From positions 1 to 35,566 of the IMG/VR virus record IMGVR_UViG_3300001851_000258: 35,566 nt of DNA. One strand, given 5' to 3'. Positions within the stretch are counted from its first letter, which is position 1; every line of letters starts with the position of its first letter. The notes beneath the pieces were generated by a model. The model did no database searches, had not been told where the DNA came from, and saw only the letters and a program-made list of their open reading frames with translations. The translations under genes and the position numbers were made by a program. This document shows, piece by piece, positions 5,824-19,208 of the stretch. This DNA is from a virus.

Positions 5824-5942
5824 CGCTTACTCCACAACAAAAAACTCTCTACCGCTGTTACTATGAACAGAACAAAGCTGATGCGCTTCCACAGCTTGAG
5901 TCGTTTTAGGAATAAGTATTGAGGCACTTTAATTCCACCCAT
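5820..5942 (-). CDS. 40-residue single-span membrane protein
   Basis: A short gene that fills the gap between two structural genes exactly. Its ATG overlaps the stop of the 97-residue gene as TAATG, and its TGA overlaps the next ATG as ATGA. It encodes a basic N-terminus (MGGIKVPQYLFLKRLKLWKR) followed by one hydrophobic span (ISFVLFIVTAVESFLLW) and a short basic end. The double overlap makes it very likely to be translated. Membrane placement is predicted from hydrophobicity. The function is unknown; a small holin-like or inner-membrane factor is possible, but nothing proves it. Confidence 0.65.
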   Translation of the reverse strand: MGGIKVPQYLFLKRLKLWKRISFVLFIVTAVESFLLWSKR

Positions 5943-6591: not shown

Positions 6592-6872
6592 TAGAAAAAC
6601 TCTGCCGTTCCTACAGTATTCGGTCCAGCCGCAGCTATTCCATTAATTACACCAGTGTATAGTTCGTCTGGATCAATTTCAAATGAGCCACCAGCCGGAG
6701 CAAGGTATACACCTTTTCCGATTACAGCAGCCTCACCAAAACTCAACCAAACACCATTTACGCCAGCGTTTACTATAATGGCACGTTTTCTTGCTTCGTT
6801 AGCCGCCAATACTTGCGTACTAGCCGCACCAACTGATGCAGTAGCGTTGTTTACGTTACGGTATTTAATCAT
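6591..6872 (-). CDS. Small beta-sandwich virion protein (93 aa), paralogue of 5942-6235
   Basis: This is the best-preserved member of a local family of three small proteins. The strands are visible as STQVLAANEARKRAIIVN, GVWLSFGEAAVIG, KGVYLAPAGGSFEIDPDE and a C-terminal strand. Proteins with this layout occur next to the coat gene in many tailed phages and are thought to be minor head or tail surface proteins; that role is inferred here from position. It follows a GC-rich hairpin at 6889-6904 and is coupled to the next gene by TAATG. Confidence 0.65.
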   Translation of the reverse strand: MIKYRNVNNATASVGAASTQVLAANEARKRAIIVNAGVNGVWLSFGEAAVIGKGVYLAPAGGSFEIDPDELYTGVINGIAAAGPNTVGTAEFF

Positions 6873-6888
6873 AAAGCCTCAAAAGTAA

Positions 6889-6904
6889 GGGGAGTTTCCT
6901 CCCC
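6889..6904 (-). terminator. Perfect GC-rich hairpin with GAAA tetraloop
   Basis: On the minus strand the sequence reads GGGGAG-GAAA-CTCCCC, a perfect six-base-pair stem with a GNRA-type tetraloop, then TTACTTTT. It lies 7 bases beyond the stop of the 121-residue gene at 6912. It may act as a weak terminator or as a 3' stabilising or processing hairpin that sets the level of downstream transcripts. A similar element follows the coat gene. Confidence 0.5.
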
Positions 6905-6911
6905 CATGAAT

Positions 6912-7277
6912 TTAGGCTACTACGAATTTTCCGATAAGCAAGTCAACTGCTACAGGGTCAGTTTCAGTAGTTCCGTCACCAGCGGCATTGAAAACAAGTT
7001 TCATTACCGTAGCAGAAGCCGCACCATCAATGTTACCAACTAGGCCAGCAACATTAGCGTCAGCAACTTCAATTCCCATTCCGAGCAGCTTCAGGGGAAC
7101 AAGTCCACCAGAGGCAAACGTCAGGGTTACATCACCAGCGCCGTTGTCGGTCAAGGCAATGGCTTCGTTTTCCGGGTTCCACTGAATGCTAGGAACACCA
7201 GCGGTCCAGATAATGCGAAGGGGAATCATTTTCAGCACTTTGTGCTGGAGAGTATCAAGTTGGAGTTTATTTCCCAT
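6912..7277 (-). CDS. Putative capsid-associated protein after the coat gene (121 aa)
   Basis: This gene lies directly downstream of the coat gene and is flanked by a GC-rich hairpin on each side, an arrangement that suggests a protein made in high but separately tuned amounts. The sequence is beta-rich and acidic (IQWNPENEAIALTDNGAGDV, then LTFASGGLVPLKLLGMGIEV, and a long Ala/Gly-rich C-terminal part ending in LLIGKFVVA). It resembles small capsid decoration or head-completion proteins in composition, but I do not recognise a named family. A structural role is inferred from position and composition. Confidence 0.6.
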   Translation of the reverse strand: MGNKLQLDTLQHKVLKMIPLRIIWTAGVPSIQWNPENEAIALTDNGAGDVTLTFASGGLVPLKLLGMGIEVADANVAGLVGNIDGAASATVMKLVFNAAGDGTTETDPVAVDLLIGKFVVA

Positions 7278-7309
7278 GATTTAAGTCCTTTTCAAAAAGT
7301 AATGATAAT

Positions 7310-7325
7310 GGGGGGATTCCCCCCC
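7310..7325 (-). terminator. GC-rich hairpin after the coat gene
   Basis: Six Gs and seven Cs separated by ATT form a strong stem of six pairs immediately after the coat stop codon at 7333. On the minus strand it is followed by ATTATCATTACTTTTTG. The U-run is displaced from the stem by about 11 bases, so it may be a leaky terminator or a 3' mRNA stabiliser rather than a full stop. Confidence 0.5.
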
Positions 7326-7332
7326 ATCAAGG

Positions 7333-8583
7333 TTATACTGCGAAGTTACGCAGACGGGCTACGCTGTTCGGCTTGGAGCAGAACAATTCAAAGTAACCGC
7401 CGTAACGTGCATTGTAGAGGTCTTTGTTCGGGTCGCGCAGAAGGATCGTTCCATCATCGTCGAACCAGCCAAAGTCTTGACGCATTACGAGTTGCATATA
7501 CTTGGTGTTGAGGAAGTAAATCTCATCGTCATCGCACATTTGCGAAGAGATGAGAGGGAACGGTCCATCGTCACCCATCAGTTCAATTCCTTTGAAACCG
7601 ATTTTGGTGTCAGAGGATTTAACTTCGAGTACGTTGTAACGCTTGTGGTCTTCTGCTTGGCTCTTAAGTGCAGCCTTGGTGTTGTGCGAGCAGATAGCCA
7701 GGTTAGGGCTAACTCCAAGCTCATCTTCCAAGCTGGACACGATGTCATTAATATCACCGTAAGCAAGCGTAGCAGCAGCCAGGTCGGAAACGATACCCTT
7801 AAACTCAGGGTTAGAGGCTTGGCTGATACCATAAAGAGTGCCAGCAGAGATTGGAGCGATTTTTTTGAGTCCTACACACTCAGCATTGCGGTTTCCTTCC
7901 CAGTACAGGATATCAGCAGCAGCAGGAGCAGCAGCCGAGCCAGTGCTTACGAGTACGAGGGAGAGGGTCGTAGCGTCGAAACCAACAACCTCAACCGTCA
8001 ACTGGTAAACGCCAGCAGCGGTATAAAGGTCCATTTTTGCACCACGAGGGAAAAACTTCTTTTTATACTTAGGAGCAAGTACGCCAGCCACCGACATGGT
8101 AACAACCCAGGGAGAGGCGCTGGTTCCTGCACCACTGTCAAGGGAAGCAACTGCACCAAGCTTGCCCGACTCATCGCCGAACAGTGCGCGTTCTACCATG
8201 TGAAGGTTAAAGCCTTCGAGTACAGCTTCTACTTCGTCAACGGTTACTCGGGCGAAAGCACCACGGTCGTTGCGGGAAGCTACGATAGCTTCACGCTCGT
8301 ACTCAGCGGTAGCATAAGCGCGTTTAGCAGGAAACACAGCCTGTTCACGGGGAGCAGACTTAGGAGCAGGAAGGTTTTGACCACTTGCGCGGTAACCGAG
8401 TCCTACAGCCGAGCCGAACCGCACAGGTTGTACAAATTGCTTACCAACAAACTCTACGCTTTTGTTCTTCATCAGAATCGAGGCGAGAGGAGTCTTAGCA
8501 TTTACAAGAGATTGATCCGCGCCAGAGCCGTAAAACTCTTTAAATAGCGCATTTTCCATTCCGACACTTCGAGGTTGAGCCAT
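7333..8583 (-). CDS. Major capsid (coat) protein
   Basis: A 416-residue protein placed right after the scaffold gene and the terminase, the standard position for the coat gene. The length fits HK97-fold coat proteins of podoviruses. The N-terminal part (residues 1-60, MAQPRSVGMENALFKEFYGS) is helical. It is followed by an E-loop-like stretch (PAPKSAPREQAVFPAKRAYA) and a long helix (VDEVEAVLEGFNLHMVERALFG) like the spine helix. The segment from about residue 150 to 235, rich in Val, Thr and Ala, looks like an inserted beta domain, as in P22 coat. The C-terminal part (IYFLNTKYMQLVMRQDFGWF and RDPNKDLYNARYGGYFELF) matches the P-domain style of many phage coats. The call rests on context and layout; fold prediction would confirm it. 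Confidence 0.85.
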   Translation of the reverse strand: MAQPRSVGMENALFKEFYGSGADQSLVNAKTPLASILMKNKSVEFVGKQFVQPVRFGSAVGLGYRASGQNLPAPKSAPREQAVFPAKRAYATAEYEREAIVASRNDRGAFARVTVDEVEAVLEGFNLHMVERALFGDESGKLGAVASLDSGAGTSASPWVVTMSVAGVLAPKYKKKFFPRGAKMDLYTAAGVYQLTVEVVGFDATTLSLVLVSTGSAAAPAAADILYWEGNRNAECVGLKKIAPISAGTLYGISQASNPEFKGIVSDLAAATLAYGDINDIVSSLEDELGVSPNLAICSHNTKAALKSQAEDHKRYNVLEVKSSDTKIGFKGIELMGDDGPFPLISSQMCDDDEIYFLNTKYMQLVMRQDFGWFDDDGTILLRDPNKDLYNARYGGYFELFCSKPNSVARLRNFAV

Positions 8584-8597
8584 TTTCTATTCCCTTC

Positions 8598-9395
8598 TTA
8601 GAGGCGACCAGCTAGGCGCTTTACGTCTTCTAGACTCATAGCTTTTTTGTCTTCTGAGCCAGTTCCACGAGGAGCGTCTACTACCGCCTTCTTTTTATTT
8701 GTTTCCACTTTGTTAATCAAAGCAGTTTGTTTTTCGGCGTTCTGCTTTTTGACCTCTTCGGAGACCAGAAAGGAAACATCCTCAATGGACATATCGAAAA
8801 TGCCTTGTTGTAGAAGGGCTTTATATTGCTGTTTAACGTAAGACTTTAACCATGGCGTACTAATCTCAGGAAACTTCTGACTAGCGTCATTTAGTTCCTG
8901 CTCAATAGCTGCCTTTTCCTGCTCAATCGCAGCGGCTTCTTGTTGCTGCTGAAATTGGGCAAGACGTTCCTCAGTCTGCCGCAAACGCAATTCTAGGGGA
9001 TTTAACTCACTTCCTTGTTCTGCGGTGGCGGCTTCTGCTGCCATACGTTGAACGGAAAACGGAGCCTTTTTCCCTGTTAGCGCCTCATACGTTGCCGCTG
9101 GGTCTGCTTCTAAGCCTTGGAGCAAGCGACTAAAAAAGTCTTTTTGCTTCCGTTCAGATTCCGCCTTCTGCTGCATTGCGAGTTGTCCCGCTTTGCCGAG
9201 TTGGGCGTAACGCTTAGTAGTTTCCCAGTCCCACTCTTCCTCTTGGCCATTGATTTTAAATTTCTCTTTGCCAGAGGAAAACGGGTTGTACGTTGCAGTT
9301 TCCTGAGCCGTTTCAGTCTCAGCCGCTTCAGGAGTTGCTGGTGCAATGTCCTGTTGTTGAGGTTCTACGGTGTCAGCTACTTGTACGTCTTCCAT
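8598..9395 (-). CDS. Scaffold protein
   Basis: A 265-residue, highly charged, almost entirely helical protein between the large terminase and coat genes. The N-terminus is acidic and Pro/Gln-rich (residues 1-35). A small ordered segment follows (KFKINGQEEEWDWETTKRYAQLG, about residues 46-68), a pattern often seen at the start of podovirus scaffolds. A long coiled-coil of Glu, Gln and Ala spans about residues 130-175. The C-terminus is basic and helical (ending LEDVKRLAGRL), as expected for a coat-binding helix. It assembles with coat protein into the procapsid and is then lost. The start follows AAAGGAG. Confidence 0.85.
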   Translation of the reverse strand: MEDVQVADTVEPQQQDIAPATPEAAETETAQETATYNPFSSGKEKFKINGQEEEWDWETTKRYAQLGKAGQLAMQQKAESERKQKDFFSRLLQGLEADPAATYEALTGKKAPFSVQRMAAEAATAEQGSELNPLELRLRQTEERLAQFQQQQEAAAIEQEKAAIEQELNDASQKFPEISTPWLKSYVKQQYKALLQQGIFDMSIEDVSFLVSEEVKKQNAEKQTALINKVETNKKKAVVDAPRGTGSEDKKAMSLEDVKRLAGRL

Positions 9396-9481
9396 TTTTT
9401 AACTCCTTTAGTTGCGTGTCAATTCTATTTTTGGGAAACTTTAACTATCTAACTCCTGGCGCTTCATGGAGGAGGCGCTTG

Positions 9482-10741
9482 TCAATCATCAAAATCCTGC
9501 CCTATATACCCACCCCCTCTATCGCTTAGGCGGTAGTCTTTTGGCAGTTCTTTGACAATTTCTTGAGGTATTACAGCGTTAGTAAAGCCATAAATCAGTG
9601 CGTCAATCAGATGGTCATTACCGTCCTGGTCCCATTCGTAGGAGGCCATCTCTTTAAGTAATTGAGTGCAGTTCTTGGCTATCTTGAGCGTTCCCATGCG
9701 TAGGGCATTAACGATGCGGAGGAGTCGGGCTTGTTTATCGTACTTACCCGCTGGCGACATTTTAAGACCAATAGCGGCATATTCCGCGATGATTTGCGGG
9801 TCAATGTCTGAGCTAGTTCCAACGTATTCAAAAGGTTCCTGGCGTTGGATTACGTGGGAGTGTTGGGAGATGAGTAGCTGAGACTGTTTGTACTCGGAAT
9901 AAACGATCCAATGGCCTTTACGCTTGTTATAGGCAATCCAGACGCAAGCTGTGGGGTCGGGGGAGAAGCCATGGTCTACGCCGCGCCAGTGGAAGGAATG
10001 TTCAAGGTCGCCATGGTCCCAACGGTTACAGGTGTAGGATTCTTCTGGAAGGGCGAACACCATTCCCTGAAACGTGACGTACTCGTTAAGAATCTCCTGC
10101 CGGAATAACGGGTCATCTTTTCCAGAATACTGGTCTAAGACTATTTGCTTACCTTTAGGGTCTAGGAAGGAGTTGTCATCAATGGTGGCTTCCTCTACGT
10201 AATACTTTTCTGGATTTCCTTTGGCGGTTTGGTGCAGGTCATAAAAGAAGTTTTTTCCCCGCTTAGTAGAGCCGAACATGATTTGACCGCCGTAGTCAGC
10301 AAGCATGGGAGCTAGTTGCAGCTTTACAATCTCGGGCTTCTTCCACAGGGCAAACTCAGAGCAGATAATTAGGCCATATCCAGAGCCTACAAGGTTATCC
10401 TCAGATAGATCGGCACCGCCTACAATAATCTCCTCCTTAGTTGGGAGATAAATTGCACTCATCCGAGATTCTTGGAGCTTCCAATCGGGTTGGTTAAGTA
10501 GGATTTTGTGTAGCTTTGGCCAAATGATTCTACGCGCCTGTCTCTGAGTTTTAGCAATGTAGAGGACTGGCTGGGATTTGTCTTCAACGTGTTCCACGGC
10601 TACTTCGCAGAAGAAATTGTCTTTTCCAGTTCTTCTTCCCCAAGGTAGGACAATGTCCAGTCCAGCTTTATAGGCTAACCATGCGTTAGTTTGCTTGTAA
10701 TGAAAGCGGTTAGCGAAGTATTCAAGGCTACGCTTAAACAC
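9482..10741 (-). CDS. Terminase large subunit
   Basis: The ATP-driven DNA packaging motor and nuclease (419 residues). The Walker A-like motif GRRTGKD is at residues 35-41. The Walker B motif GLIICSE, with its catalytic Glu at 129, is at 123-129, followed by the coupling motif region IMFGSTKRGK. The nuclease half shows WRGVDHGFSPDPTA with the first acidic residue, SSDIDPQIIAEYA in the middle, and a late acidic motif NDHLIDALIYG. The start is a GTG at 10741 within the end of the small subunit gene, with AAAGGA upstream, so the two subunits are translationally coupled. The 86 bases after the stop hold nothing more than the scaffold ribosome site and a direct GGCGCTT repeat. Confidence 0.93.
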   Translation of the reverse strand: MFKRSLEYFANRFHYKQTNAWLAYKAGLDIVLPWGRRTGKDNFFCEVAVEHVEDKSQPVLYIAKTQRQARRIIWPKLHKILLNQPDWKLQESRMSAIYLPTKEEIIVGGADLSEDNLVGSGYGLIICSEFALWKKPEIVKLQLAPMLADYGGQIMFGSTKRGKNFFYDLHQTAKGNPEKYYVEEATIDDNSFLDPKGKQIVLDQYSGKDDPLFRQEILNEYVTFQGMVFALPEESYTCNRWDHGDLEHSFHWRGVDHGFSPDPTACVWIAYNKRKGHWIVYSEYKQSQLLISQHSHVIQRQEPFEYVGTSSDIDPQIIAEYAAIGLKMSPAGKYDKQARLLRIVNALRMGTLKIAKNCTQLLKEMASYEWDQDGNDHLIDALIYGFTNAVIPQEIVKELPKDYRLSDRGGGYIGQDFDD

Positions 10742-11114
10742 TCTTTTTCCTTTGCTCTAGTAGTGCTTTGGCTTGGTCAGGAGTCATGGCAGGAACCAAC
10801 TCTTCCCGCTTTTCCTCTACCGGAACCTCATAGTTCTTTAGTTTTGCTTTAGAGAGATGGATTAGAAGCTGGCGGTCTTTCTTCTCGATGGCTACTTCTA
10901 GACAGGTTTGGCGGATATTCTCTAATACTTCTTTTTCCTCGTTCTTGACTATTTCGGTGCGAATGTGAGGGTTTCTATCGAAGTATTCGTAGACGGTTCT
11001 ATAGCTGATGCCTTCTGCCACGGCTATTTTTCGCCATGTCCAGCCTTTGCCGCGTCTTTCAACGGTTCTGTCTATGAAGGCTTGTTCGCCTCCCTTTGGT
11101 TCCCACGGTAGCAT
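10734..11114 (-). CDS. Terminase small subunit (DNA-recognition)
   Basis: A 126-residue basic helical protein just before the large terminase gene, which it overlaps. Residues about 22-48 (KGWTWRKIAVAEGISYRTVYEY) form a helix-turn-helix expected to bind the packaging site. The rest is helical, with a coiled-coil-like segment (EEKEVLENIRQTCLEVAIEK) that would build the ring, and a Lys/Glu-rich tail that would contact the large subunit. The ribosome site GGAGG is about 9 bases before the ATG. The call rests on position and the HTH. Confidence 0.85.
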   Translation of the reverse strand: MLPWEPKGGEQAFIDRTVERRGKGWTWRKIAVAEGISYRTVYEYFDRNPHIRTEIVKNEEKEVLENIRQTCLEVAIEKKDRQLLIHLSKAKLKNYEVPVEEKREELVPAMTPDQAKALLEQRKKSV

Positions 11115-11141
11115 CTATCTGCGCCTCCAAACGGTAGCAGA

Positions 11142-11191
11142 GGATAGTGTTACAACCATGCTACAACTGTTTAGAAAAGGCAACACTATTC
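11142..11191. repeat. Inverted repeat upstream of the small terminase
   Basis: The arms ATAGTGTT (11144-11151) and AACACTAT (11182-11189) are perfect reverse complements, and a G-C and a G-T pair extend them outward. They enclose 30 bases that contain TACAAC twice, 11 bases apart. The right arm covers the stop codon of the 62-residue gene. Placement between the small basic gene and the small terminase suggests an operator or a packaging-recognition element. Confidence 0.4.
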
Positions 11192-11374
11192 AGGCTTAGT
11201 CTGACGTTCCATGTATTCCTGTTCGGTCATTACGACTAGGAACAGAGGTTCTTTGCGTAGTTGAGCTAGGCTGGCCACGTCCTCAGAGGCATATTCTGGA
11301 AGGTCAAAGGTTAGTCTCCAGGCGGCATCTACCGTTGTTTGGGCTTTTACGAATACCGCTTGGAGTGTAACCAT
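11186..11374 (-). CDS. Conserved small phage protein (62 aa)
   Basis: A 62-residue alpha/beta protein (MVTLQAVFVKAQTTVDAAWR, then LTFDLPEYASEDVASLAQL, then KEPLFLVVMTEQEYMERQ). The layout of strand, strand, helix, strand (AVFVKAQTTVD..WRLTFDLP...PLFLVVMT) is one I associate with small conserved proteins in phage terminase clusters, but no function is known to me. The start overlaps the stop of the previous gene (TAATG at 11374). It lies directly upstream of the small terminase and may act in packaging or DNA handling. Confidence 0.65.
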   Translation of the reverse strand: MVTLQAVFVKAQTTVDAAWRLTFDLPEYASEDVASLAQLRKEPLFLVVMTEQEYMERQTKPE

Positions 11375-11598
11375 TACATTGCCTTGATGCGGGTTTTAGC
11401 TTTTGAAGCGGACATTTTAGCGGACATTGGTTTGCCGCCGCGAGCTGTGGAGAGGGCAATGGCTACTGCTTGCTTCTGAGCTTTTGCTTTGCTCTTAGGC
11501 TTAGATGTGCCGATTTTCTTTGTCTTGGTGTAGGCACTCATAATTTCAGAGATGTTTGCACTAACTGTTTTTTGGCTTTTGCCTTTCTTAAGTGGCAT
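11374..11598 (-). CDS. Basic Lys/Ala/Ser-rich phage protein (74 aa)
   Basis: I place the start at the internal ATG (MPLKKGKSQKTVSANISEIM) because this N-terminus is typical of a small phage family with a conserved 'PLKKGKSQKTVSANI' beginning and a 'QKQAVAIALSTA' motif, here near residue 47. An upstream in-frame ATG would add 18 residues unlike the family. The protein is strongly basic with a long Lys/Ser/Ala helix and is likely to bind DNA or RNA or to serve as a histone-like factor. That role is inferred. It overlaps the upstream regulator by 11 bases and the downstream gene by TAATG. Confidence 0.7.
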   Translation of the reverse strand: MPLKKGKSQKTVSANISEIMSAYTKTKKIGTSKPKSKAKAQKQAVAIALSTARGGKPMSAKMSASKAKTRIKAM

Positions 11599-11785
11599 CT
11601 TTTTTTCCCTTTTGTGAGTATAGTTTGTCCAGATCAGAAAAAATCTTTTCACCGCTTTTTATGTAGCGCAAGAGAAACTGCTCTGCGAGCCAGTTCCATT
11701 TCCTGTCTTCAAGTTTACGCCGCTTGTTAGCGGCATCTAGCAGCTCATAGCTAATTCGTGCTGGGAATGTCGGTTTGTAGCTCAT
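11588..11785 (-). CDS. Ribbon-helix-helix-like putative regulator (65 aa)
   Basis: A small basic protein transcribed first in the minus-strand operon and adjacent to the divergent control region. The order is a short strand (PTFPARIS), a helix (YELLDAANKRRKL), a turn and a second helix (WNWLAEQFLLRYI), which fits the ribbon-helix-helix fold of Arc, MetJ and CopG-type DNA binders. The basic tail (KLYSQKGKKDAT) is unusual but compatible. Such dimers bind short repeats, and a GTAGTA/TACTAC inverted repeat lies 45-62 bases upstream of its start. I infer an autoregulator or early/late switch; another small DNA-associated protein cannot be excluded. Confidence 0.55.
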   Translation of the reverse strand: MSYKPTFPARISYELLDAANKRRKLEDRKWNWLAEQFLLRYIKSGEKIFSDLDKLYSQKGKKDAT

Positions 11786-11858
11786 AGTCTTTTAGTAAAA
11801 CAAAATAAAAATAAACACAAGTTGACTTTGTAGTATTGTTGTACTACTACATTTCTTC
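11786..11858. promoter_or_regulatory. Divergent promoter/operator region
   Basis: Seventy-three bases separate the two operons. Plus strand: TTGACT (11822-11827) and TACTAC (11845-11850) with a 17-base spacer, placing the start site at about 11857-11858, next to ATG 11859. Minus strand: TTGTGT (11820-11815) and TACTAA (11797-11792), also 17 bases apart, placing the start site at about 11785, the A of the ATG. Both transcripts may therefore be leaderless, since neither gene has a ribosome site. The -10 boxes are weak matches, so this is a candidate. The inverted repeat GTAGTA-N6-TACTAC (11830-11847) overlaps the plus promoter and could be the operator. Confidence 0.5.
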
Positions 11859-12023
11859 ATGAAATACATAATTAGCAAAGAGGATTACGAAACATTAACT
11901 GATGCGCTTGAAGAGCTGAGAATGCTTTGTAAAGACGGTTCTGGAGATGACCAGACGCGAACCATAACAATTAGATTTTTAGAAGCAATAACCCGTTTTG
12001 AACCAGGAGTTACAATTCAATGA
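11859..12023 (+). CDS. Small leading protein of the early operon (54 aa)
   Basis: The first gene of the plus-strand operon. It encodes an acidic helical protein (MKYIISKEDYETLTDALEEL, then a loop GSGDDQTRTI, then FLEAITRFEPGV). The stop overlaps the next ATG as ATGA, so it is coupled to the annealing protein. No ribosome site precedes the ATG, which fits a leaderless message from the promoter just upstream. The family is unknown to me. The position suggests an early regulatory or recombination-accessory role, which is inference. Confidence 0.6.
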   Translation: MKYIISKEDYETLTDALEELRMLCKDGSGDDQTRTITIRFLEAITRFEPGVTIQ

Positions 12024-12574
12024 AAACAGTAAAGACACCAGCCGGAACAGAGCTTCCTTTGATGGACATTAAGGGAAAGCAGTACCTTCAAGTAGCCCAC
12101 AGAATTGTGTGGTTTAGAGAGATTCGCCCAGACTGGTCGATTGAGACAGATTGTATATCTACCTCTCCAGAAGCCTCTTTATTTAAAGCAACAGTAAAAG
12201 ATGAGAAGGGAAGAGTTATTGCTACTGCTCATAAATCAGAAACAGTTAAAGGATTTCCCGATCATTTAGAAAAATCTGAAACTGGTGCTATTGGGCGTTG
12301 CCTTAGTCTGTGTGGTTTCGGAACACAGTTTACTCCTGAGCTAGACGAGGGAGATAGACTTGCAGACTCTCCTCAAGAGGTTAAACCGCAAAGAACGCCT
12401 GGAGGATTGTCCAATGCTCAATTAGTAAGACTTGACACTATTGCGGCAAAGAAAGGGATTTCTAATCATAACATTAAACATATGGCTGAAGTGTTAGGGA
12501 TTAAGTCTAGGTTAGAAATGAATAAAAACGAATATGACCAATTAATTACATTAATAGAAAATTATACTAAATAA
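12020..12574 (+). CDS. Single-strand annealing protein (Rad52/ERF-like recombinase)
   Basis: A 184-residue protein of a type common in phages next to lambda-type exonucleases. The beta-sheet core reads KGKQYLQVAHRIVWFREIRP, then SIETDCI, then a turn and KATVKDEKGRVIATAHK. It is followed by the typical helix-loop signature PDHLEKSETGAIGRCLSLCGFGTQ at about residues 84-107, which I recall from phage Rad52/ERF-like annealing proteins. The C-terminal 70 residues form a Lys-rich helical domain (LSNAQLVRLDTIAAKKGISN and following) resembling the DNA-binding tails of such proteins. It would anneal complementary strands made by the exonuclease at 13887, for recombination and concatemer formation. A terminator follows immediately. 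Confidence 0.75.
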   Translation: MKTVKTPAGTELPLMDIKGKQYLQVAHRIVWFREIRPDWSIETDCISTSPEASLFKATVKDEKGRVIATAHKSETVKGFPDHLEKSETGAIGRCLSLCGFGTQFTPELDEGDRLADSPQEVKPQRTPGGLSNAQLVRLDTIAAKKGISNHNIKHMAEVLGIKSRLEMNKNEYDQLITLIENYTK

Positions 12575-12576
12575 AA

Positions 12577-12612
12577 AAACCCGCTTTAGGTCTTTACTCC
12601 TATCGCGGGTTT
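12577..12612 (+). terminator. Intrinsic terminator after the annealing protein
   Basis: The arms AAACCCGC (12577-12584) and GCGGGTTT (12605-12612) form a perfect eight-pair stem with a 20-base loop, followed by ATATATTCTTTATTT. The left arm begins 3 bases after the stop codon. The symmetric A- and T-tracts would allow termination in either direction. It separates the annealing-protein transcript from the non-coding RNA region. Confidence 0.65.
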
Positions 12613-12626
12613 ATATATTCTTTATT

Positions 12627-13077
12627 TGCAGAAAAAAGAATGTAACGTCAGGTTAGTCAATTCTGCATTAACCGTCAATACATTCTTTAAAATTGCCGAG
12701 GATCGTTAGCGGGATAACTCGTAAACCCAGGCTATAAGACCTTTTAGGCAAATCCTAAGAGGCAAGTTACTAAAGATCATCCTACCGTGGCTACACCACG
12801 GAATAGAGAACCGCGCATGGTAGTTATTAGCAGCAAGGTGGGCGGTCAAGGGCTTTAGGGACTGATAATTGTGTTTGAAAGATTCTAGCAATACAGCAAG
12901 TACCGGAGCCTTAAGTAAGCTAAATCGGTGCGACCCTTTTCGGACTACCCTTTCGGAAACACTCCCAGGAGTAAAGGGCTGAGAAGCTAGAAGAGATAAA
13001 GACACTACACTGGCACACACAATGCTAACTCCTGGAGTGGAGAGAATAGCTTGGGCGGTCTTTTGTCTTTTTTTTTT
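12627..13077 (+). ncRNA. Candidate large structured non-coding RNA
   Basis: About 450 bases with no credible plus-strand gene, lying between a terminator and a T-tract of ten (13068-13077). Pairings seen directly: AAAGAATGTA 12635-12644 with TACATTCTTT 12679-12688, enclosing GGTTA/TAACC. TGCAGAA 12627-12633 pairs with TTCTGCA 12661-12667 in that loop and would make a pseudoknot. Hairpins: CCTTTTAGG/CCTAAGAGG (12740-12762), CCGTGG/CCACGG (12785-12801), ACCGC/GCGGT (12810-12846), ACCG/CGGT (12902-12929), CCCTTT/AAAGGG (12948-12978), and the closing AAGCTA/TAGCTT (12984-12989 with 13047-13052). A tandem ACCCTTTTCGGA/ACCCTTTCGGA is at 12933-12957. None of it matches tmRNA, RNase P or tRNA as I know them. 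The transcript strand and exact ends are inferred. It could instead be a packaging or replication site. Confidence 0.6.
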
Positions 13078-13176
13078 AAGTTTATGAAATTAACAGTCGC
13101 CTATAAGCAATGTTTTGAAATGAATCATTAATTAAAGGATTGAAAGTTGATCAAAAGCAACTAAGGAGAATGAAAA

Positions 13177-13359
13177 ATGAGTGATTATGAATTGATTAAA
13201 AGTGAGAGATTAAATCTAGCTTTAAAGGTTATTGACCTAGCATTTGCCAAGTATGACTTAGATTGTGTGATTGCTCTAGCCTCTGGAGAATCAACTAAGG
13301 CAGCTCTTGAGGCTTTAAAGGAGGAAATAACTATCGCCATTAAAACATTAATTCGTTAA
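13177..13359 (+). CDS. Small helical protein (60 aa)
   Basis: The gene follows an AAGGAG ribosome site in the leader GGAGAATGAAAAATG, a sequence used again in variant form before two later genes. The product is all-helical (SERLNLALKVIDLAFAKYDL, then VIALASGESTKAALEALKEE, ending AIKTLIR) and acidic, and looks like a helix bundle. I do not recognise the family. The 97 bases between the T-tract and its start contain a possible TATAAG -10 box near 13100 and a TTGATCAA palindrome, but no convincing promoter. Confidence 0.6.
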   Translation: MSDYELIKSERLNLALKVIDLAFAKYDLDCVIALASGESTKAALEALKEEITIAIKTLIR

Positions 13360-13376
13360 CATTTTCTTGGGCGGGA

Positions 13377-13658
13377 ATGAAGTCTATAAAAATTCGTAGT
13401 GGTGGAACAGCATATCTTTTAGGACCAGGTGAAACTTGTAAAGCTGGAGAAATATGTTTCACGTTCGAAGAGTTTGACTGGGTTAAAACTAAATCTAAAG
13501 ACTTTGCTTATGATCCAGAACTATCCTCAGAGTTTTGGAAAACTCTTTTAGAGAAGAAAAAAACAAATTCGAGTTACTCATTCTTTGAGGACTTTCCCAA
13601 AAACAACGGGTTAGCCATCTGTAACGAAATTATCAAAATGTTACAAAAAAAGATTTGA
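13377..13658 (+). CDS. Hypothetical early protein (93 aa)
   Basis: An unrecognised protein. The N-terminal half is beta-like (KSIKIRSGGTAYLLGPGETC). The C-terminal half is charged and helical (SEFWKTLLEKKKTNSSYSFF, ending EIIKMLQKKI). It has a weak G-rich ribosome site directly before the ATG. It lies between the small helical protein and the zinc-binding protein in the early operon. No motif points to a function; an accessory anti-host or regulatory protein is possible but unsupported. Confidence 0.55.
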   Translation: MKSIKIRSGGTAYLLGPGETCKAGEICFTFEEFDWVKTKSKDFAYDPELSSEFWKTLLEKKKTNSSYSFFEDFPKNNGLAICNEIIKMLQKKI

Positions 13659-13711
13659 TTGTTACGAGTCCCGCTGATACTACAGTTGTACTACAGCAAT
13701 ATTGGGGGAAT

Positions 13712-13921
13712 ATGGAACGCTTTAACCGCTGTGACCGTTGTAAATCTCCTCTATCTAGAGACAAAGGGATCTACAAACTAGTCATGAAAGGCAACTTAGA
13801 AGTATCGCTATGTGGGAACAAATGCTTTGACCACTTCACAAACGACATAAAACTAAAAGAAGTTAAGAAAGTAGAGGTTTTAAAATATGAAAGTAATCGC
13901 AATAGACCAAGGTACAGATAG
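13712..13921 (+). CDS. Small zinc-binding protein (69 aa)
   Basis: I chose the ATG at 13712 (MERFNRCDRCKSPLSRDKG) over an upstream TTG at 13655 because GGGGGA lies just before it and the cysteine motif starts right away. Cys7 and Cys10 (C-x2-C) and Cys34 and Cys38 (C-x3-C, in LCGNKCFDHF) form a plausible zinc finger or ribbon. The Lys-rich C-terminus suggests nucleic-acid contact. The last 35 bases overlap the start of the exonuclease gene in another frame, so both are probably co-translated. A DNA- or RNA-binding accessory function is inferred. Confidence 0.6.
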   Translation: MERFNRCDRCKSPLSRDKGIYKLVMKGNLEVSLCGNKCFDHFTNDIKLKEVKKVEVLKYESNRNRPRYR

Positions 13922-14738
13922 CTGGCACGAACTACGCTCTAAACACATCGGAGCCAGTGAAGTACCTGCAATTATGGGAACCTCTGACTTTGGAAACGCT
14001 TATGAGGTATGGGCCGTTAAAACAGGAAAAAAACCACCATTCAAAGGAAACTGGGCTACTCAAAGAGGCACAGAAGCAGAGCCAAAGATTAAAAAACTTT
14101 ATGAAGAACTCCATAACACTCCCCTTCTCCAACCCGTAGTAGAGTTTGAGGAATGGCCAATACTCATGGCCTCCCTAGATGGATACAACGAAGAAATAGG
14201 CTTAGTTGTTGAGTTTAAATATCCCTCGGCTGAAAAACACTATCTAGCAAAAAATAATCAAGTGCCAGCAACTTATGTAGATCAAATCCAAGCACAATTG
14301 ATGGTTACAGGATGCAATACCGCTCATTACGTTTCTTATGATGGGTTTGAAATAGAGGTGGTAGTCGTTCGAGAGGATAAAGTACGCCAGAAAGAGATTT
14401 TAGAGCGTTTAAAAGCATTTTGGAGTTTGGTAGAGACTGACACCCCACCAGAAGGCGCACCAAAAATTTTAGTATCAGAAAACTTAGAGGTTCTTGCTTC
14501 GCGCTATAAAACACTAAGCCAAATATTAGAATATTCTAAAGAAGAACTAGAAATGATCCGCGAACGGATTTGCGAATTGGTTAAAGACAAAAAGGCTGAG
14601 TTTTACGGCCTCTCACTCACTCGCTCCGAGCGGATCGGAAACGTAGACTACAAAGCTATCCCAGAATTGAACGGTGTAGACTTGAACAAATACAGAAAAC
14701 CCTCATCCGAGGTAGTAACCATAAAGGAACTGAAATGA
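13887..14738 (+). CDS. YqaJ-type (lambda exonuclease-like) 5'-3' exonuclease
   Basis: A 283-residue protein with the YqaJ/lambda-exonuclease core: RGTEAEP at 60-66 (Glu63/Glu65), the metal-binding Asp98 in ASLDGY, the E-x-K pair Glu109/Lys111 in VVEFKYP, and the QIQAQLMVTG helix at about 133-142. These are the residues that bind metal and cut one strand from double-strand ends. Beyond about residue 175 there is a helical extension (ENLEVLASRYKTLSQILEYS) like that of phage YqaJ proteins. With the annealing protein at 12020 it forms a Red-type recombination pair. The GAGG before the ATG, inside the previous gene, sets the start. The stop overlaps the next ATG (ATGA). Confidence 0.88.
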   Translation: MKVIAIDQGTDSWHELRSKHIGASEVPAIMGTSDFGNAYEVWAVKTGKKPPFKGNWATQRGTEAEPKIKKLYEELHNTPLLQPVVEFEEWPILMASLDGYNEEIGLVVEFKYPSAEKHYLAKNNQVPATYVDQIQAQLMVTGCNTAHYVSYDGFEIEVVVVREDKVRQKEILERLKAFWSLVETDTPPEGAPKILVSENLEVLASRYKTLSQILEYSKEELEMIRERICELVKDKKAEFYGLSLTRSERIGNVDYKAIPELNGVDLNKYRKPSSEVVTIKELK

Positions 14739-14935
14739 GAATCAAAGCTGGAGACAAAGTAAGGGTAGTTTGTGAAGTGATAGGAGAAGTAATCGAAGAT
14801 CCAACCAAATCTGAGTTTTCTGTTCTAGTTCAGTTTGGAAAAGAAATTGCCAGACTTCCAAACGATGGAACGCTCTTAGGAATGACATGCTTAAAATTGG
14901 TCAAAGTAGAGGAGGAAACCTATGAACACCCTTGA
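14735..14935 (+). CDS. Small beta-rich protein (66 aa)
   Basis: A short beta-rich protein whose layout (MRIKAGDKVRVVCEVIGEVI, then FSVLVQFGKEIARLPNDGTL, then LGMTCLKLVKVEEE) fits an SH3-like small barrel of the kind found in early phage regulators or adaptors. It begins by ATGA overlap with the exonuclease stop, so it is translated in the same pass. Its end overlaps the start of the first 27-residue membrane peptide by 14 bases. The function is unknown. Confidence 0.6.
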   Translation: MRIKAGDKVRVVCEVIGEVIEDPTKSEFSVLVQFGKEIARLPNDGTLLGMTCLKLVKVEEETYEHP

Positions 14936-15005
14936 ATTTAAGAATATCATCTGTTGGTTGGCTCTGCTGCTGTTCGTAACCGCTTATTTCACTGGCTTAA
15001 TATGA
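14922..15005 (+). CDS. 27-residue membrane peptide (possible holin or antiholin component)
   Basis: The peptide has a short hydrophilic head (MNTLEFKN) and one long hydrophobic span (IICWLALLLFVTAYFTGLI). A GGAGG ribosome site 6-7 bases upstream supports translation. Its TGA overlaps the next ATG (ATGA), and that next peptide runs directly into the lysozyme gene, so all three are likely to be made together. Small single-span membrane peptides next to an endolysin are typical of pinholins or holin regulators, but at 27 residues this is shorter than known holins. The role is inferred. Confidence 0.6.
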   Translation: MNTLEFKNIICWLALLLFVTAYFTGLI

Positions 15006-15085
15006 AAATACTTTTAATTTCTTTTGGCTATTTGTTCTTTGTTTTACTCGTAATTGCTGTTCTTAAACTCGTAAGGAAAGACTAA
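15002..15085 (+). CDS. 27-residue membrane peptide directly before the lysozyme
   Basis: The peptide consists of a hydrophobic span (MKILLISFGYLFFVLLVIAV) and a short basic tail (LKLVRKD). The gene overlaps the upstream peptide by ATGA and the lysozyme start by TAATG (stop at 15083-15085, ATG at 15085). The positive tail after the span predicts an N-out, C-in orientation, whereas the upstream peptide has its charges at the N-terminus. The pair could act as holin and antiholin or form a hetero-oligomer. Both are far shorter than usual holins. Confidence 0.6.
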   Translation: MKILLISFGYLFFVLLVIAVLKLVRKD

Positions 15086-15681
15086 TGGGAAGCGGAATTA
15101 ACGGCGACAGCCAATATCAACCACCAGATTTAGATAAGAAATTTATTATTAACGAGGCTGGACTAGAACTGGTTAAACACTTTGAATCATTATTTCTAAA
15201 CAGCTACATAGATCCAATTGGTGTGCCAACCATAGGCTACGGAAAAATTAGGTTTAGAGATGGATCAAAAGTTGAGCTAGGGCAAACCTGCACCAAAGAA
15301 CAAGCTGAAAAATGGCTCATCGAAGACCTAGAGGACGAGGGTGCAAAATACGTTCGTTACTATCTAAACGATAAACAAGAGTACGAACTGAATCAGAACC
15401 AATTCTCATCTTTAGTGTCTTTTACGTTTAATCGAGGAGCAGGACGGTTTAGAGACTACATCGCTCCATTCATTAATAAGAATGACATAAGTGGAGCCAT
15501 GACCGCCTTATGCTCTTTAAACTGGGCCGTAGAGAATGGTCAAAAGAAATACTTTCTAGGACTAGACCGCCGCCGCTGGGCTGAAAGATACCTCTTTGAA
15601 GGAAAAGACTGGCGGGCATTTGATACCGTTGCAAAGTTTAAGGCGTTTAAGGACAACAACTATGAATTACTGGGAAAATGA
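15085..15681 (+). CDS. Endolysin, T4/P22-type lysozyme (glycoside hydrolase family 24)
   Basis: A 198-residue muramidase. The catalytic set of the family is present with the usual spacing: Glu34 (KHFESL), Asp43 (Y-I-D) and Thr49 in the signature VPTIGYG, that is Glu+9 and Asp+6 as in T4 lysozyme. The C-terminal half (QNQFSSLVSFTFNRGAGRF and the GLDRRRWAERYLFEG motif) is also typical of the family. There is no signal peptide, so release would need a holin. It is coupled by TAATG to a 27-residue membrane peptide and has AAGGAAAG before the ATG. It is unusual that this lysis gene lies in the early operon. Confidence 0.9.
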   Translation: MGSGINGDSQYQPPDLDKKFIINEAGLELVKHFESLFLNSYIDPIGVPTIGYGKIRFRDGSKVELGQTCTKEQAEKWLIEDLEDEGAKYVRYYLNDKQEYELNQNQFSSLVSFTFNRGAGRFRDYIAPFINKNDISGAMTALCSLNWAVENGQKKYFLGLDRRRWAERYLFEGKDWRAFDTVAKFKAFKDNNYELLGK

Positions 15682-15832
15682 ATTGAAAAAGGCAGAAACA
15701 AAACCAGAAATAGCATTAAAGGCTCTTATGAGTATCTCTATTCCAGATCCAGTTCAATACGATGGAATGCTGGCATGGACGCTTAAAAACATTGCCAAAG
15801 ACGCTTTAAAGGAAATTAACGGCAAACCATAG
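15662..15832 (+). CDS. Small helical protein (56 aa)
   Basis: I set the start at ATG 15662 (MNYWENELKKAETKPEIALK), inside the end of the lysozyme gene, with AAGGA about 8 bases upstream. The protein is helical throughout (IALKALMSISIPD, DGMLAWTLKNIAKDALKEI). A longer in-frame start would run through lysozyme sequence. No family or motif is recognised; it may be a lysis or accessory factor. The 96 bases after its stop hold no clear gene, only an AT-rich stretch and the ribosome site of the next gene. Confidence 0.5.
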   Translation: MNYWENELKKAETKPEIALKALMSISIPDPVQYDGMLAWTLKNIAKDALKEINGKP

Positions 15833-15928
15833 ACGTATAAATTATGCAGAAATGTATAAAACTCTTTATAGCCTGTTTATTTTTTCTCAATTGAATGTTG
15901 CTTAAAAACAACAAAATGGAGAATGAAA

Positions 15929-16294
15929 ATGAAAAAAGTAATTCAAGTGATTGATGAAGACGCGGCAGAAAAATATGCAAATGTTCATTATCGTGAAGAT
16001 TCGCGAGAACTTTATGGAAACATAACCCGTGACTTCCTTGCGGGATGCGCTTACGGGCGTGAGCAAGAGAAGAAGAAGCTGGAAATTGCTTTAGATACTT
16101 TAGGCAAGATAGCACTGAGGGTCGATAAGTGTTTGCTCGGTCCACCTATTGATACAGCAAATGATTTTATTGAACGGGCCAGTAGTTCAGATGATTTAAT
16201 TTGTTGGTCTTTTGAATTGGGAAGTCATAGAGCCTATTCAGAATGTGCAATCGAAGCAAAAGAAGTCTTAAAACAAATCGAAGGAAAGGAATGA
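15929..16294 (+). CDS. Hypothetical protein with an MKKVIQV start (121 aa)
   Basis: The ATG at 15929 is preferred over 15923 because the GGAG is 7 bases away from the former and only 1 from the latter. The first seven residues (MKKVIQV) and the upstream leader are nearly identical to those of the next gene, although the rest differs. The body is helical and has an ITRDFLAGCAYGREQEKKK segment like that in many small phage proteins. The C-terminal part contains two cysteines in helical surroundings (DDLICWSFELGSHRAYSECA). The function is unknown. It is likely co-transcribed with the Sm-like gene that follows 3 bases later. Confidence 0.6.
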   Translation: MKKVIQVIDEDAAEKYANVHYREDSRELYGNITRDFLAGCAYGREQEKKKLEIALDTLGKIALRVDKCLLGPPIDTANDFIERASSSDDLICWSFELGSHRAYSECAIEAKEVLKQIEGKE

Positions 16295-16297
16295 AAA

Positions 16298-16567
16298 ATG
16301 AAAAAAGTAATTCAAGTGACCGAAGTTGATGGCGAGGGATTAGAGGCTTTTATTTATGAAAGAATTTTTATTGTGTGCAGATCGTATTTCTATGCCGGAA
16401 CGCTAACGAGAATTTATGACGATTGCGTTTTGTTAGAGGATGCTCGCTTTGTATTGGAAAGCGGAAGCTTTGAAGGAAAAGGAATTGCTAACTCCGAAAA
16501 AGTAAACGGCGGAAAGATTTACGTTACAAAAAACTCAATCGAATCCTTTTTTCAAAGCCACGAATAA
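16298..16567 (+). CDS. Small Sm-like (LSm-type) beta-barrel protein (89 aa)
   Basis: The pattern after the MKKVIQV start ([43 protein letters not shown]) follows the Sm1-style layout: a helix, a strand, a tight Gly turn with Leu, then Asp-x3 and a strand ending in an Asp/Ala. I recall proteins of this type as conserved hypotheticals in many phages and bacteria, but this is memory, not a database result. The AAGGA is 7 bases before the ATG. Its stop lies in the first copy of a 13-base tandem repeat and is followed by the G-rich hexamer gene. An RNA- or DNA-binding role is inferred from the fold pattern. Confidence 0.55.
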
Positions 16568-16597
16568 TGGACACGAATAATGGACACGAATAATGGA
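16559..16597 (+). repeat. Triple 13-base tandem repeat with stop-start overlaps
   Basis: Three perfect copies of CACGAATAATGGA occupy 16559-16571, 16572-16584 and 16585-16597. Each contains TAATG, so each offers a stop overlapping a start. Since 13 is not a multiple of three, the ATGs at 16567, 16580 and 16593 lie in different frames, and only the last opens the long hexamer gene. The first TAA is the stop of the Sm-like gene. Change in copy number would alter which frame is reached by coupling. Confidence 0.85.
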
Positions 16598-16772
16598 AAA
16601 GAAAAAATACTATCGGTTTTGGGATAAATCTAGGGCTAGGGCTAGGGCTGGGGCTGGGGCTGGGGCTTGGGCTAGGGCTGGGGCTGGGGCTTGGGCTAGG
16701 GCTTGGGGTTGGGATGGGGCTGGGTCTAGGGCTGGGTCTAGGGCTTGGGCTTGGGATGGGGCTAAAAAATAA
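16593..16772 (+). CDS. Dipeptide-repeat protein (Arg/Gly/Trp-Ala), 59 aa
   Basis: A frame running exactly from the third TAATG to TAA at 16770-16772. After a short start ([13 protein letters not shown]) it is almost pure X-Ala, with X being Arg, Gly or Trp, plus a few Gly-Trp-Asp and Gly-Ser units, and it ends in Lys-Lys. The underlying DNA is the GGGCTN hexamer array. The next gene starts right after the stop, which supports real coding. All six frames of such repeats tend to be open, so coding is not proven by openness alone. Aromatic, basic, low-complexity chains of this sort could bind nucleic acid or condense. A G-rich site placed between two genes is the alternative. Confidence 0.55.
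16633..16763 (+). repeat. Degenerate GGGCTN hexamer array (G-quadruplex candidate)
   Basis: About 131 bases of imperfect hexamers GGGCTA, GGGCTG and GGGCTT, with small variations (GGTTGGGATGG, GGGTCTAGG). Runs of three or four Gs are separated by two to four bases, which is classic for intramolecular G-quadruplexes on the plus strand DNA or RNA. The array coincides with the dipeptide-repeat gene. The local composition is unlike the rest of the window, which suggests expansion by slippage. Confidence 0.9.
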
Positions 16773-17027
16773 ATGAAGCAAGCACTAATCGTTTCTGTCG
16801 TTTTCCTTTTTGGCCTGATCTTTGGCGCTGTCATGGGCATCAAGATTTATTCCGGCCTTATTCGAAACCACGATCTTGAATCCCTTGCAAACGCTTCCGT
16901 GGAAAATACAAAACAAGCCATAGAAAACCTGAATCATTCGCAAGAATTAAACGATAAATTCCGAATTAAATTTGAAAAATGCCTTAAAGCAAATGAGGAG
17001 TTAAACAAACGCCTCTGGAAAAGATAA
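16773..17027 (+). CDS. Single-span membrane protein with helical stalk (84 aa), possible inner-membrane spanin
   Basis: The N-terminus is one membrane span ([19 protein letters not shown]) with two charges at most before it. It is followed by 55 residues of charged helix ([38 protein letters not shown]), which fits a type II protein with a periplasmic coiled coil as in Rz-like i-spanins. The ATG directly follows the stop of the dipeptide-repeat gene. A lipobox protein (17065) is the next gene, so a two-gene spanin is possible. A similar candidate pair lies on the minus strand in the late region, so either or both may serve. Confidence 0.45.
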
Positions 17028-17064
17028 TTGATAAAACCAAAAGACTGACGCACCATGATAATTA

Positions 17065-17337
17065 GTGAAGCATTACGCCCTTATTGCTGCTCTGATATCC
17101 TGTGCTGAAGTTTGCCGCTTGGCTTATTACGAGTCTGCTTGTGGCTCTGGAGATAAAACAACCTGCCAATGCGTTGAAACCATAGAACGTAGACTCGATA
17201 ACGTAATCCCCTTTTCACTCACATGGAAACAAGAGAAAAAAACGTACAACCCTGATGAGAATGATTATTATTTTGACCGAGGAGAGCGGATTAAGTACGA
17301 GTCCGATAAAAACTCATGGGAAGACATGGACCGCTAA
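17065..17337 (+). CDS. Putative lipoprotein (90 aa), possible outer-membrane spanin partner
   Basis: I place the start at GTG 17065 (MKHYALIAALISC...). Residues 1-13 have a hydrophobic core and the lipobox LISC, with Cys13 as the lipidated residue. The mature part has several more cysteines (about residues 17-37), which suggests disulfides and a periplasmic location. The next 45 residues are hydrophilic and acidic with Tyr (YNPDENDYYFDRGER). It follows the membrane-helix protein by 37 bases. Ribosome-site evidence is weak. Spanin partnership is inferred only from order and topology; another periplasmic lipoprotein is equally possible. Confidence 0.4.
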   Translation: MKHYALIAALISCAEVCRLAYYESACGSGDKTTCQCVETIERRLDNVIPFSLTWKQEKKTYNPDENDYYFDRGERIKYESDKNSWEDMDR

Positions 17338-17354
17338 AAACAGATAGAAAAACC

Positions 17355-17468
17355 ATGTACACGCCAGAAGAACGGCGCAAAAAACATCTAGAAAAAGCCA
17401 AACGTAATTTTATGAAACAACAGTTGGCGATTCGTGCTGCTCTGAAAAAAGAGACATTAACTCAATAG
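17355..17468 (+). CDS. Possible 37-residue basic peptide
   Basis: A short frame encoding a strongly basic helix (MYTPEERRKKHLEKAKRNFM and further Lys residues). It overlaps the 3' end of the minus-strand RusA gene by 59 bases in antisense, and there is no good ribosome site. Such peptides do occur in early phage operons, but the evidence is thin. Confidence 0.25.
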   Translation: MYTPEERRKKHLEKAKRNFMKQQLAIRAALKKETLTQ

Positions 17469-17892
17469 CATTAATTGGCGTATGGGCTGATAGCACGATA
17501 TGACAACACTCATTTTCACCGTCCATTTTTTCAATATTTGATGCCCAGACGTGCTTATCATCAATTCCTAATTGAGCGAAAAAACAATCCTGAACAGCTT
17601 TGATCCGATTAGCTACATCTAGCTTTTTAATCCCACCCTGCTTGTTGTAGAGCCTCGAACGGTTAAAAACGAAAAAGTAATCAACCTTGAAGTGTTCAAC
17701 ACCACCCCAATTTTTAGCCATTAAGTCTTTAATTGAATGAAAATAGGCTTTATGGATAACGGCATACGCCTCACACGATTTTCTGTACTCTTTTAACTCT
17801 CTTGTGGCTACTCTACCAACACCAGGCACATTTCTATAAAGTGCATTTTCAGAAGGGGGAAGGGGAAACCCTGAGATAAAAATAGCGTCCAT
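17410..17892 (-). CDS. rusA: RusA-like Holliday junction resolvase
   Basis: A 160-residue protein with the RusA layout. The N-terminus FISGFPLPPSENALYRN is the 'PPSxN' start of this family. The central KKLDVANRIKAVQDCFFAQL stretch, followed by GIDDKHVWASNIEK, carries the conserved acidic residues (Asp in KLD, in AVQD and in GIDD) that bind metal. RusA dimers cut Holliday junctions, here probably those created by the annealing protein and exonuclease. It is the only minus-strand gene inside the early operon. Its ATG at 17892 shares two bases with the HNH ATG at 17891 (CATG), so it must be expressed from its own transcript or antisense to the operon. Confidence 0.82.
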   Translation of the reverse strand: MDAIFISGFPLPPSENALYRNVPGVGRVATRELKEYRKSCEAYAVIHKAYFHSIKDLMAKNWGGVEHFKVDYFFVFNRSRLYNKQGGIKKLDVANRIKAVQDCFFAQLGIDDKHVWASNIEKMDGENECCHIVLSAHTPINAIELMSLFSEQHESPTVVS

Positions 17893-18181
17893 GAGAAAGA
17901 GAATAGTTAATAAAGAGCTGTTAAAGAACTATAAAACACAGATTTGCGTTATTTGTGGCGTTTTTGGCGTAGATCCAGACCACATTAAACACAGAGGCGC
18001 TGGAGGAGATGATACAGAGGACAATCTAATGCCACTTTGTAGACTACACCACTCTGAAAGGCATCATAAAGGCTGGCACCGTTTTTCTATAAAATACCCT
18101 GTAATTACACAAGAACTGGAAAAGCGTGGATTTGGTTTTGTAAATGAATTTGGTACTTGGAAGTTACGCAAATTAAACTAA
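17891..18181 (+). CDS. HNH nuclease (96 aa)
   Basis: The zinc and catalytic motifs are visible. Cys19-x2-Cys22 is followed by DPDHIKHRGAGGDD (Asp30-His31 pair), the HNH asparagine Asn45 in EDNLMPLC with Cys50, and the H-H-x3-H cluster at 53-58. Small HNH proteins of this kind act in phages in DNA cleavage or packaging-linked cutting, and often sit next to recombination genes. Here the start codon overlaps that of the divergent RusA. There is no clear ribosome site. Homing endonuclease or packaging nickase are alternatives. Confidence 0.8.
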   Translation: MRKRIVNKELLKNYKTQICVICGVFGVDPDHIKHRGAGGDDTEDNLMPLCRLHHSERHHKGWHRFSIKYPVITQELEKRGFGFVNEFGTWKLRKLN

Positions 18182-18185
18182 AGGA

Positions 18186-18401
18186 ATGAGTTTCCTTATA
18201 GGTAAACGTATTCTTTTAAAAGAAATGAGCTGCGAAGAATCTTATGAGGTTAAGGTCTTGGCAATAGTCAAAGACGCTGGACAAATCTATTACAAAGTTA
18301 AAATTGACGGGAAAACTGAATACATCAATGCAAACGGTGTAGAACGATTTTCTATGAAACTTCCACCAAAGAAGGGAAAGAAGTTGAGACTTATTGAGTA
18401 G
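18186..18401 (+). CDS. Small beta-barrel-like protein (71 aa)
   Basis: An unrecognised small protein with alternating strands (SFLIGKRILLKEM, YEVKVLAIVKDAGQIYYKVK, GKTEYINANGVERF) and a basic C-terminus (LPPKKGKKLRLIE). The layout recalls Tudor or SH3-like barrels that bind nucleic acid or protein. The AAGGA lies directly against the ATG, so initiation may depend on read-through from the HNH gene, which ends 4 bases upstream. It sits between two nucleases. Confidence 0.55.
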   Translation: MSFLIGKRILLKEMSCEESYEVKVLAIVKDAGQIYYKVKIDGKTEYINANGVERFSMKLPPKKGKKLRLIE

Positions 18402-18419
18402 CGTTAGAAAATTGACGTA

Positions 18420-19208
18420 ATGAGCAAGGACGCTCCGAAAATTCTCATATTCGACATTGAAACCGCCCCAATACTGGGTTGGTTCTGGAATTTGTTTCAG
18501 CAAGACATTGCTCTAAATCAAATAGCATCAGACTGGCATATAATGAGTTGGGCCGCAAAATGGCTACGTTCTTCAGAAGTGTTTTACATGGATCAACGAA
18601 ACGCCAAAAAAATAGACGATGACAAAACAATTTTAAAAGCACTTTGGAAGCTATTAGACGAGGCTGATATTGTAGTCACCCAGAACGGAAAAGCCTTTGA
18701 CTCTAAGAAGGTAAACGCTAGGTTTCTGATTAACGGCCTTCCCCCTCCCTCCCCTTACAAGCACATAGACACTAAGCAGTTAGCTAAGAAAAACTTTGCC
18801 TTTACATCTAATAAACTCGAATACCTCTCCCACAAGATTAATAAGAAATATAAGAAGCTGAAACATTCCAAATTCTCAGGCTTTGAACTGTGGAAAGAGT
18901 GTCTAGCGGGAAATATAGAAGCCTGGGAGGAGATGGAAAAATATAATAAGCACGATGTACTAGCCACAGAGGAACTATATTTATCCCTAGCACCATGGGG
19001 AACAGGAGTAGACCTCAACCCATACATGAGTGGCGGGTTTAGATGTAAGGACTGTGGATCAGACAATCTTACCAAGCAAGGATTTAAGATAACAAAAAGC
19101 GGAAAGTATCAGCAATGGAAGTGCCGTGATTGTGGGTCTTGGACAAATTCCATCGGAGAAAAAAACAATCTATTCAGCAAAGAGCGTAGAAAAGAATTAA
19201 AGGGCTAA
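18420..19208 (+). CDS. DEDDy 3'-5' exonuclease with C-terminal zinc ribbon
   Basis: A 262-residue protein. The first exonuclease motif is DIET (Asp12, Glu14). The second is NGKAFD with Asp94. The third is YNKHD (Tyr175, Asp179), making it DEDDy type. The fold is RNase H-like, as in the proofreading subunits and RNase-H-like nucleases of phages. Residues 205-245 add a zinc ribbon (Cys209, Cys212, Cys235, Cys238 in RCKDC..KCRDCG), which probably binds DNA or RNA ends. No polymerase is present in the window, so it may act in recombination, degradation or repair rather than proofreading. Its stop overlaps that of the convergent minus-strand gene by two bases (19206-19207). Confidence 0.8.
   Translation: MSKDAPKILIFDIETAPILGWFWNLFQQDIALNQIASDWHIMSWAAKWLRSSEVFYMDQRNAKKIDDDKTILKALWKLLDEADIVVTQNGKAFDSKKVNARFLINGLPPPSPYKHIDTKQLAKKNFAFTSNKLEYLSHKINKKYKKLKHSKFSGFELWKECLAGNIEAWEEMEKYNKHDVLATEELYLSLAPWGTGVDLNPYMSGGFRCKDCGSDNLTKQGFKITKSGKYQQWKCRDCGSWTNSIGEKNNLFSKERRKELKG

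Follow-up and report, generated by a model that had tools for sequence, protein, structure and literature searches.

A candidate structured non-coding RNA in the early operon of a metagenomic phage

Analysis of the window (the whole stretch of DNA analysed, 35,566 bases of an IMG/VR record) identified an element on the plus strand, at approximately 12626-13077, which is slightly more likely than not a real structured RNA gene. The region can credibly be read as an orphan structured RNA belonging to the early operon of a phage. Selection at the RNA level is the most economical account of the data, given the strand-specific folding, the G-U pairs, the raised GC content, the absent coding signal and the pairing of the two ends beside a T-tract. 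A preliminary description had proposed a structured plus-strand RNA here; strand-specific stability, lack of coding, end pairing and GC content uphold that proposal, while two of its stems differ from the fold predicted in this study. The RNA that the element would yield is phage-encoded, structured and non-coding, about 440-450 nt long and made along with the early genes. It would comprise a 5' hairpin, a 366-nt core whose ends are zipped by a long-range helix of 18 bp, and a U-tract.

Genomic setting, boundaries and coding potential

The window is derived from a phage whose capsid protein and portal are SU10-like and whose large terminase subunit is of the Terminase_6 type. A mostly rightward block (12020-19208) lies between two leftward gene blocks (628-11785 and 19205-35530). 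It includes a YqaJ/RecE-like exonuclease (13887-14738) and a DNA-polymerase-type exonuclease (18420-19208), and its gene content suggests that it is the early region. The terminase genes are present in a separate operon, transcribed in the direction opposite to the element's block. A non-coding stretch of ~440 nt lies between the gene end at 12574 and the gene start at 13177, with a run of ten T at its 3' end, and the element lies 100 nt ahead of the next start codon. The product of the upstream ORF (12020-12574) is similar to proteins of Thermus phages that carry an ssDNA-binding annotation. As this ORF has its own stop at 12574, and the downstream ORF its own start and a Shine-Dalgarno-like site at 13177, a self-splicing intron was rejected. 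No tRNA was found in the 35.6-kb window by ARAGORN, and a portal-alignment scan of genome contigs found no host.

The features of the element and its boundaries are as follows. The architecture is that of the predicted base-pair ensemble, and p denotes a pairing probability.

12577-12612, no assigned strand: terminator-like hairpin after the upstream gene
12593-12619, plus: promoter-like pair TTTACT-15-TATATT (9/12, short spacer), with a predicted RNA start near 12626
12635-12688, plus: 5' hairpin with a 10-bp outer and a 7-bp inner stem, its loop complementary to 12627-12633
12698-12705, plus: outer closing helix, 5' strand, pairing with 13056-13063 (GAGGATCG/CGGTCTTT, p = 0.95)
12709-12722, plus: small hairpin bulged from the 5' side of the closing helix (p = 0.97)
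12726-12735, plus: inner closing helix, 5' strand, pairing with 13046-13055 (CCCAGGCTAT/ATAGCTTGGG, p = 0.98)
12740-12762, plus: 9-bp hairpin (p = 1.00)
12765-12863, plus: branched arm with hairpins at 12785-12801 and 12810-12846 (ensemble fold)
12871-13005, plus: second branched arm, less certain, including hairpin 12900-12931 (main helices p = 0.66-0.92)
12960-12972/13028-13039, plus: 12-bp helix CACTCCCAGGAGT/ACTCCTGGAGTG, alternative or pseudoknot, crossing the second arm (constrained fold)
13046-13063, plus: closing helices, 3' strands (ensemble fold)
13068-13077, plus: tract of ten T, probable 3' end by intrinsic termination (T-run scan)

The hairpin following the upstream gene (arms 12570-12590/12599-12619) had been described as a clear terminator. 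The hairpin exists; its T-run is weak on the plus strand (TTTATATATT) and strong on the minus strand (T7), and it thus looks like a bidirectional or mainly minus-strand stop. Ten bases in its loop (12592-12601) are perfectly complementary to 12967-12976 in the element core, where approximately 0.2 such pairs would be expected by chance in 621 bases on a rough estimate. A standard scan for sigma-70 consensus promoters found none, and TTTACT-15-TATATT is the best candidate, a weak one, near the 5' end of the element. As its spacing is poor, possible alternatives are read-through from the early promoter and the use of other promoter types by the host. The 3' tract of ten T was present as described and is the longest A or T run of the window, in which the only other run of at least eight is at 6579-6586; transcription of the element would probably stop here. 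Three copies of TAYATTCTTT surround the 5' hairpin within 12613-12689 (12613 direct, 12635 inverted, 12679 direct), and could be a protein-binding site or a source of alternative hairpins.

In agreement with the preliminary description, there was no believable gene in 12620-13080. All plus frames are broken by stops, and the minus-strand frame at 12706-13020, in which a coding signal had been named as the evidence to look for against an RNA, showed none. This 104-aa frame has a codon log-odds of -0.107 compared with +0.16 to +0.36 for 21 phage ORFs, and a PHROG search with it returned no match. A protein-coding gene was rejected, since codon usage and family match both fail.

Predicted fold and folding statistics

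The outer stem of the 5' hairpin (12635-12644/12679-12688) is predicted as first proposed, with p = 0.96, and the inner stem (12651-12657/12667-12673, p = 1.00) is predicted too, although with seven pairs rather than five. When folded alone, the 72-nt 5' hairpin has a z-score of -4.8. The letters of the suggested pseudoknot, TGCAGAA (12627-12633) and TTCTGCA (12661-12667), are present and this candidate pairing is plausible. The core (12698-13063, 366 nt) has a branched interior, and its ends are closed by a long-range helix of 8 + 10 bp abutting the T-tract. As this helix almost touches the tract, folding of the domain could itself supply the terminator stem.

Within the core, hairpin 12785-12801 was again predicted (p = 1.00); two other elements of the preliminary description were not favoured. 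One is a hairpin at 12948-12978. The other is a domain closed by AAGCTA/TAGCTT, since the TAGCTT bases are taken up by the inner closing helix and 12883-12889 is the predicted partner of GCTAGAA (12986-12992; p = 0.83). Two small hairpins come after the second arm. The 12-bp helix that crosses this arm could form as a pseudoknot or as an alternative state. A nested fold containing it is predicted to be 3.5 kcal/mol less stable (-114.9 versus -118.4 kcal/mol), and its strength is not rare, being matched by the best stem of many shuffles.

The plus strand of the whole element folds with a z-score of -3.5, and none of 100 shuffles was as stable, whereas the minus strand was average (z = 0.01). 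For the core, no shuffle among 300 reached its minimum free energy. Pairs with p > 0.9 numbered 59, against a shuffle mean of 27 (59 was reached in 15/300 shuffles), and 18 paired positions join the two ends with a probability reached in 4/300. Ten of the 75 high-confidence pairs are G-U. Together with the poor folding of the minus strand, these pairs fit selection on an RNA rather than on a DNA palindrome. The GC content of the element is 47%, compared with 39% in the flanking genes. A scan with 370-nt windows (190 windows, both strands) placed nine lower in z-score, all elsewhere in the genome and mostly coding, with several coding segments at -5 to -7; in a 200-nt scan, the 5' part of the element ranked second of 354. 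Since comparable z-scores are reached within coding regions of this genome, the folding statistic cannot decide the matter by itself.

Homologue searches and related phages

No homologue was found across Rfam, phages, plasmids, viral contigs and species genomes. Rfam gave no family at the gathering threshold or at E values up to 10, with sub-threshold matches only, many of them to the upstream terminator. Known families including tmRNA and RNase P were rejected, and the Rfam covariance models and ARAGORN agreed with the earlier observation that GOLLD, ROOL, tmRNA and RNase P are not matched. A blastn search of the region against phages and plasmids returned nothing or chance matches at E = 5, and DNA patterns of the element likewise gave nothing or chance matches in viral contigs and genome contigs. 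A covariance model of one arm, run over 378 kb of fetched loci, recovered the window itself and one chance match (E = 3.8). A AGCAAGGTGGGCGGTCAA structure seemingly shared by locus L017 was rejected, its surroundings being ordinary genes and a terminator-like hairpin. With no homologue found, a new RNA class is not established, although possible.

Scans of viral contigs with neighbouring or phage proteins identified a relative, represented by contigs G001 and G002 (99.9% identical to each other over 25 kb), together with L022, a nearly identical partial contig, and more distant ones. The relative has most structural genes in common with the window (TerL 59% and capsid 78% identical), and is the only one with a readable early region. 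This region differs from that of the window, with a long ORF on one strand, followed on the opposite strand by genes for an ATP-binding protein, a small protein and YqaJ. The element was absent from G001/G002 by blastn, nhmmer, genome search and the one-arm covariance model. Comparison of the element with the relative in all frames gave no convincing trace of protein homology; the best match covered 14 residues (E = 0.002), in a minus frame that stop codons interrupt. L022 matches window positions 16689-33009 (16.3 kb) with 99.97% identity and parts from the window's sequence near 16,690, at an array of G-rich hexamers. Nothing corresponding to 11786-14738 was found on this contig, which ends too early for the presence of the element to be judged. 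The different early genes of G001/G002 and the switch in L022 show that early regions in this lineage are mosaic. The array where L022 switches to a different early region, composed of GGGCTN hexamers (16631-16763), is a possible recombination or assembly junction.

Separately, the major capsid gene of G001/G002 carries a structured insertion of ~237 nt (L005:10296-10540; fold z-score -5.5), positioned between the codons equivalent to residues 100 and 101 of the window capsid protein, whose gene has no insertion. This is probably a small self-splicing intron. An Rfam search of the insertion found no match.

Structured RNAs known from phages were compared with the element. The packaging RNA (pRNA) of phi29 is one of these, and packaging was among the roles first suggested for the region. 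The element has no Rfam match, and the terminase of its phage comprises a conventional TerL and possibly a small subunit, encoded in another operon that is transcribed in the opposite direction. GOLLD and ROOL are phage RNAs of unknown function, often located near tRNA islands, that form RNA cages, and many GOLLD members exceed 800 nt (PMC12286853). These are nearest in kind, and the resemblance is of kind only: they are likewise phage-encoded, large and highly branched, with predicted pseudoknots and no known function, whereas the element is ~440 nt, has no covariance-model match even at an E value of 10, and lies in a window without a tRNA island (their typical, although not obligatory, location). 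The HK022 put RNA is a cis-acting RNA of ~70 nt with two stem-loops in an early phage operon (PMC9378689). The element is similarly a structured RNA in a phage early operon beside terminators, but its core is a closed multi-branch fold of 366 nt rather than two stem-loops in ~70 nt.

Competing explanations and implications

Of a discrete transcript acting in trans and an effect in cis, the former is favoured with low confidence, in view of the sealed ends and the size of the fold; the closed core would give a stable RNA that serves as a decoy or scaffold for a factor of the host or the phage. We regard this as a tentative proposal. A cis-acting leader is unlikely by comparison. Such a leader would control termination at the T-tract or make the polymerase terminator-resistant, thereby switching the recombination genes from 13177 on or off. 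The location of the element within the early operon, with a terminator-like site on either side and a start codon shortly after it, is consistent with this, as is the competition of the 12-bp helix near the 3' end with the second arm, and the put RNAs of HK022 provide a phage precedent for RNA antitermination in cis (PMC9378689). However, the element is approximately six times larger than those RNAs, no Rfam leader was found above threshold, and the would-be terminator stem, the closing helix, is predicted at p ≥ 0.95 without a clear anti-terminator partner.

The region could alternatively be non-functional or recently acquired filler, such as an insertion that has decayed within a mosaic early region, with coincidental folding. 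The lack of homologues, the highly mosaic early regions of these phages and the z-scores reached by coding windows of the same genome are compatible with filler, which we consider slightly less likely than a leader; the strand asymmetry and the long end-to-end helix beside the T-tract would be unexpected in decayed DNA, and a convincing protein trace relative to G001/G002 was lacking. Improbable, and the least likely of these, is a site acting as DNA (a replication origin, an operator array or a packaging site) with inverted repeats recognised in that form, even though TAYATTCTTT occurs three times around the 5' hairpin and a possible single-strand-DNA-binding gene adjoins. The core helices are rich in G-U pairs and their folding is confined to one strand, no skew change was found at the site, and the terminase genes are in another operon. 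The packaging or replication site offered in the preliminary description is therefore less likely than an RNA.

The structured RNA reading could extend to a class of mid-sized, ornate phage RNAs that a lineage of metagenomic phages makes early in infection. Their ends would be zipped, and they might contain a pseudoknot or dimerise through the palindrome-like ACTCC/GGAGT segments; we consider such a new class possible, although doubtful. A demonstration of covariation would establish a new RNA family; otherwise, the case would be a warning that folding statistics on their own can mislead. Few large structured RNAs are known from phages, most of them without a known function. A compact one encoded in an early operon would be a small, testable system, as early expression points to host takeover or to control of the phage recombination genes.
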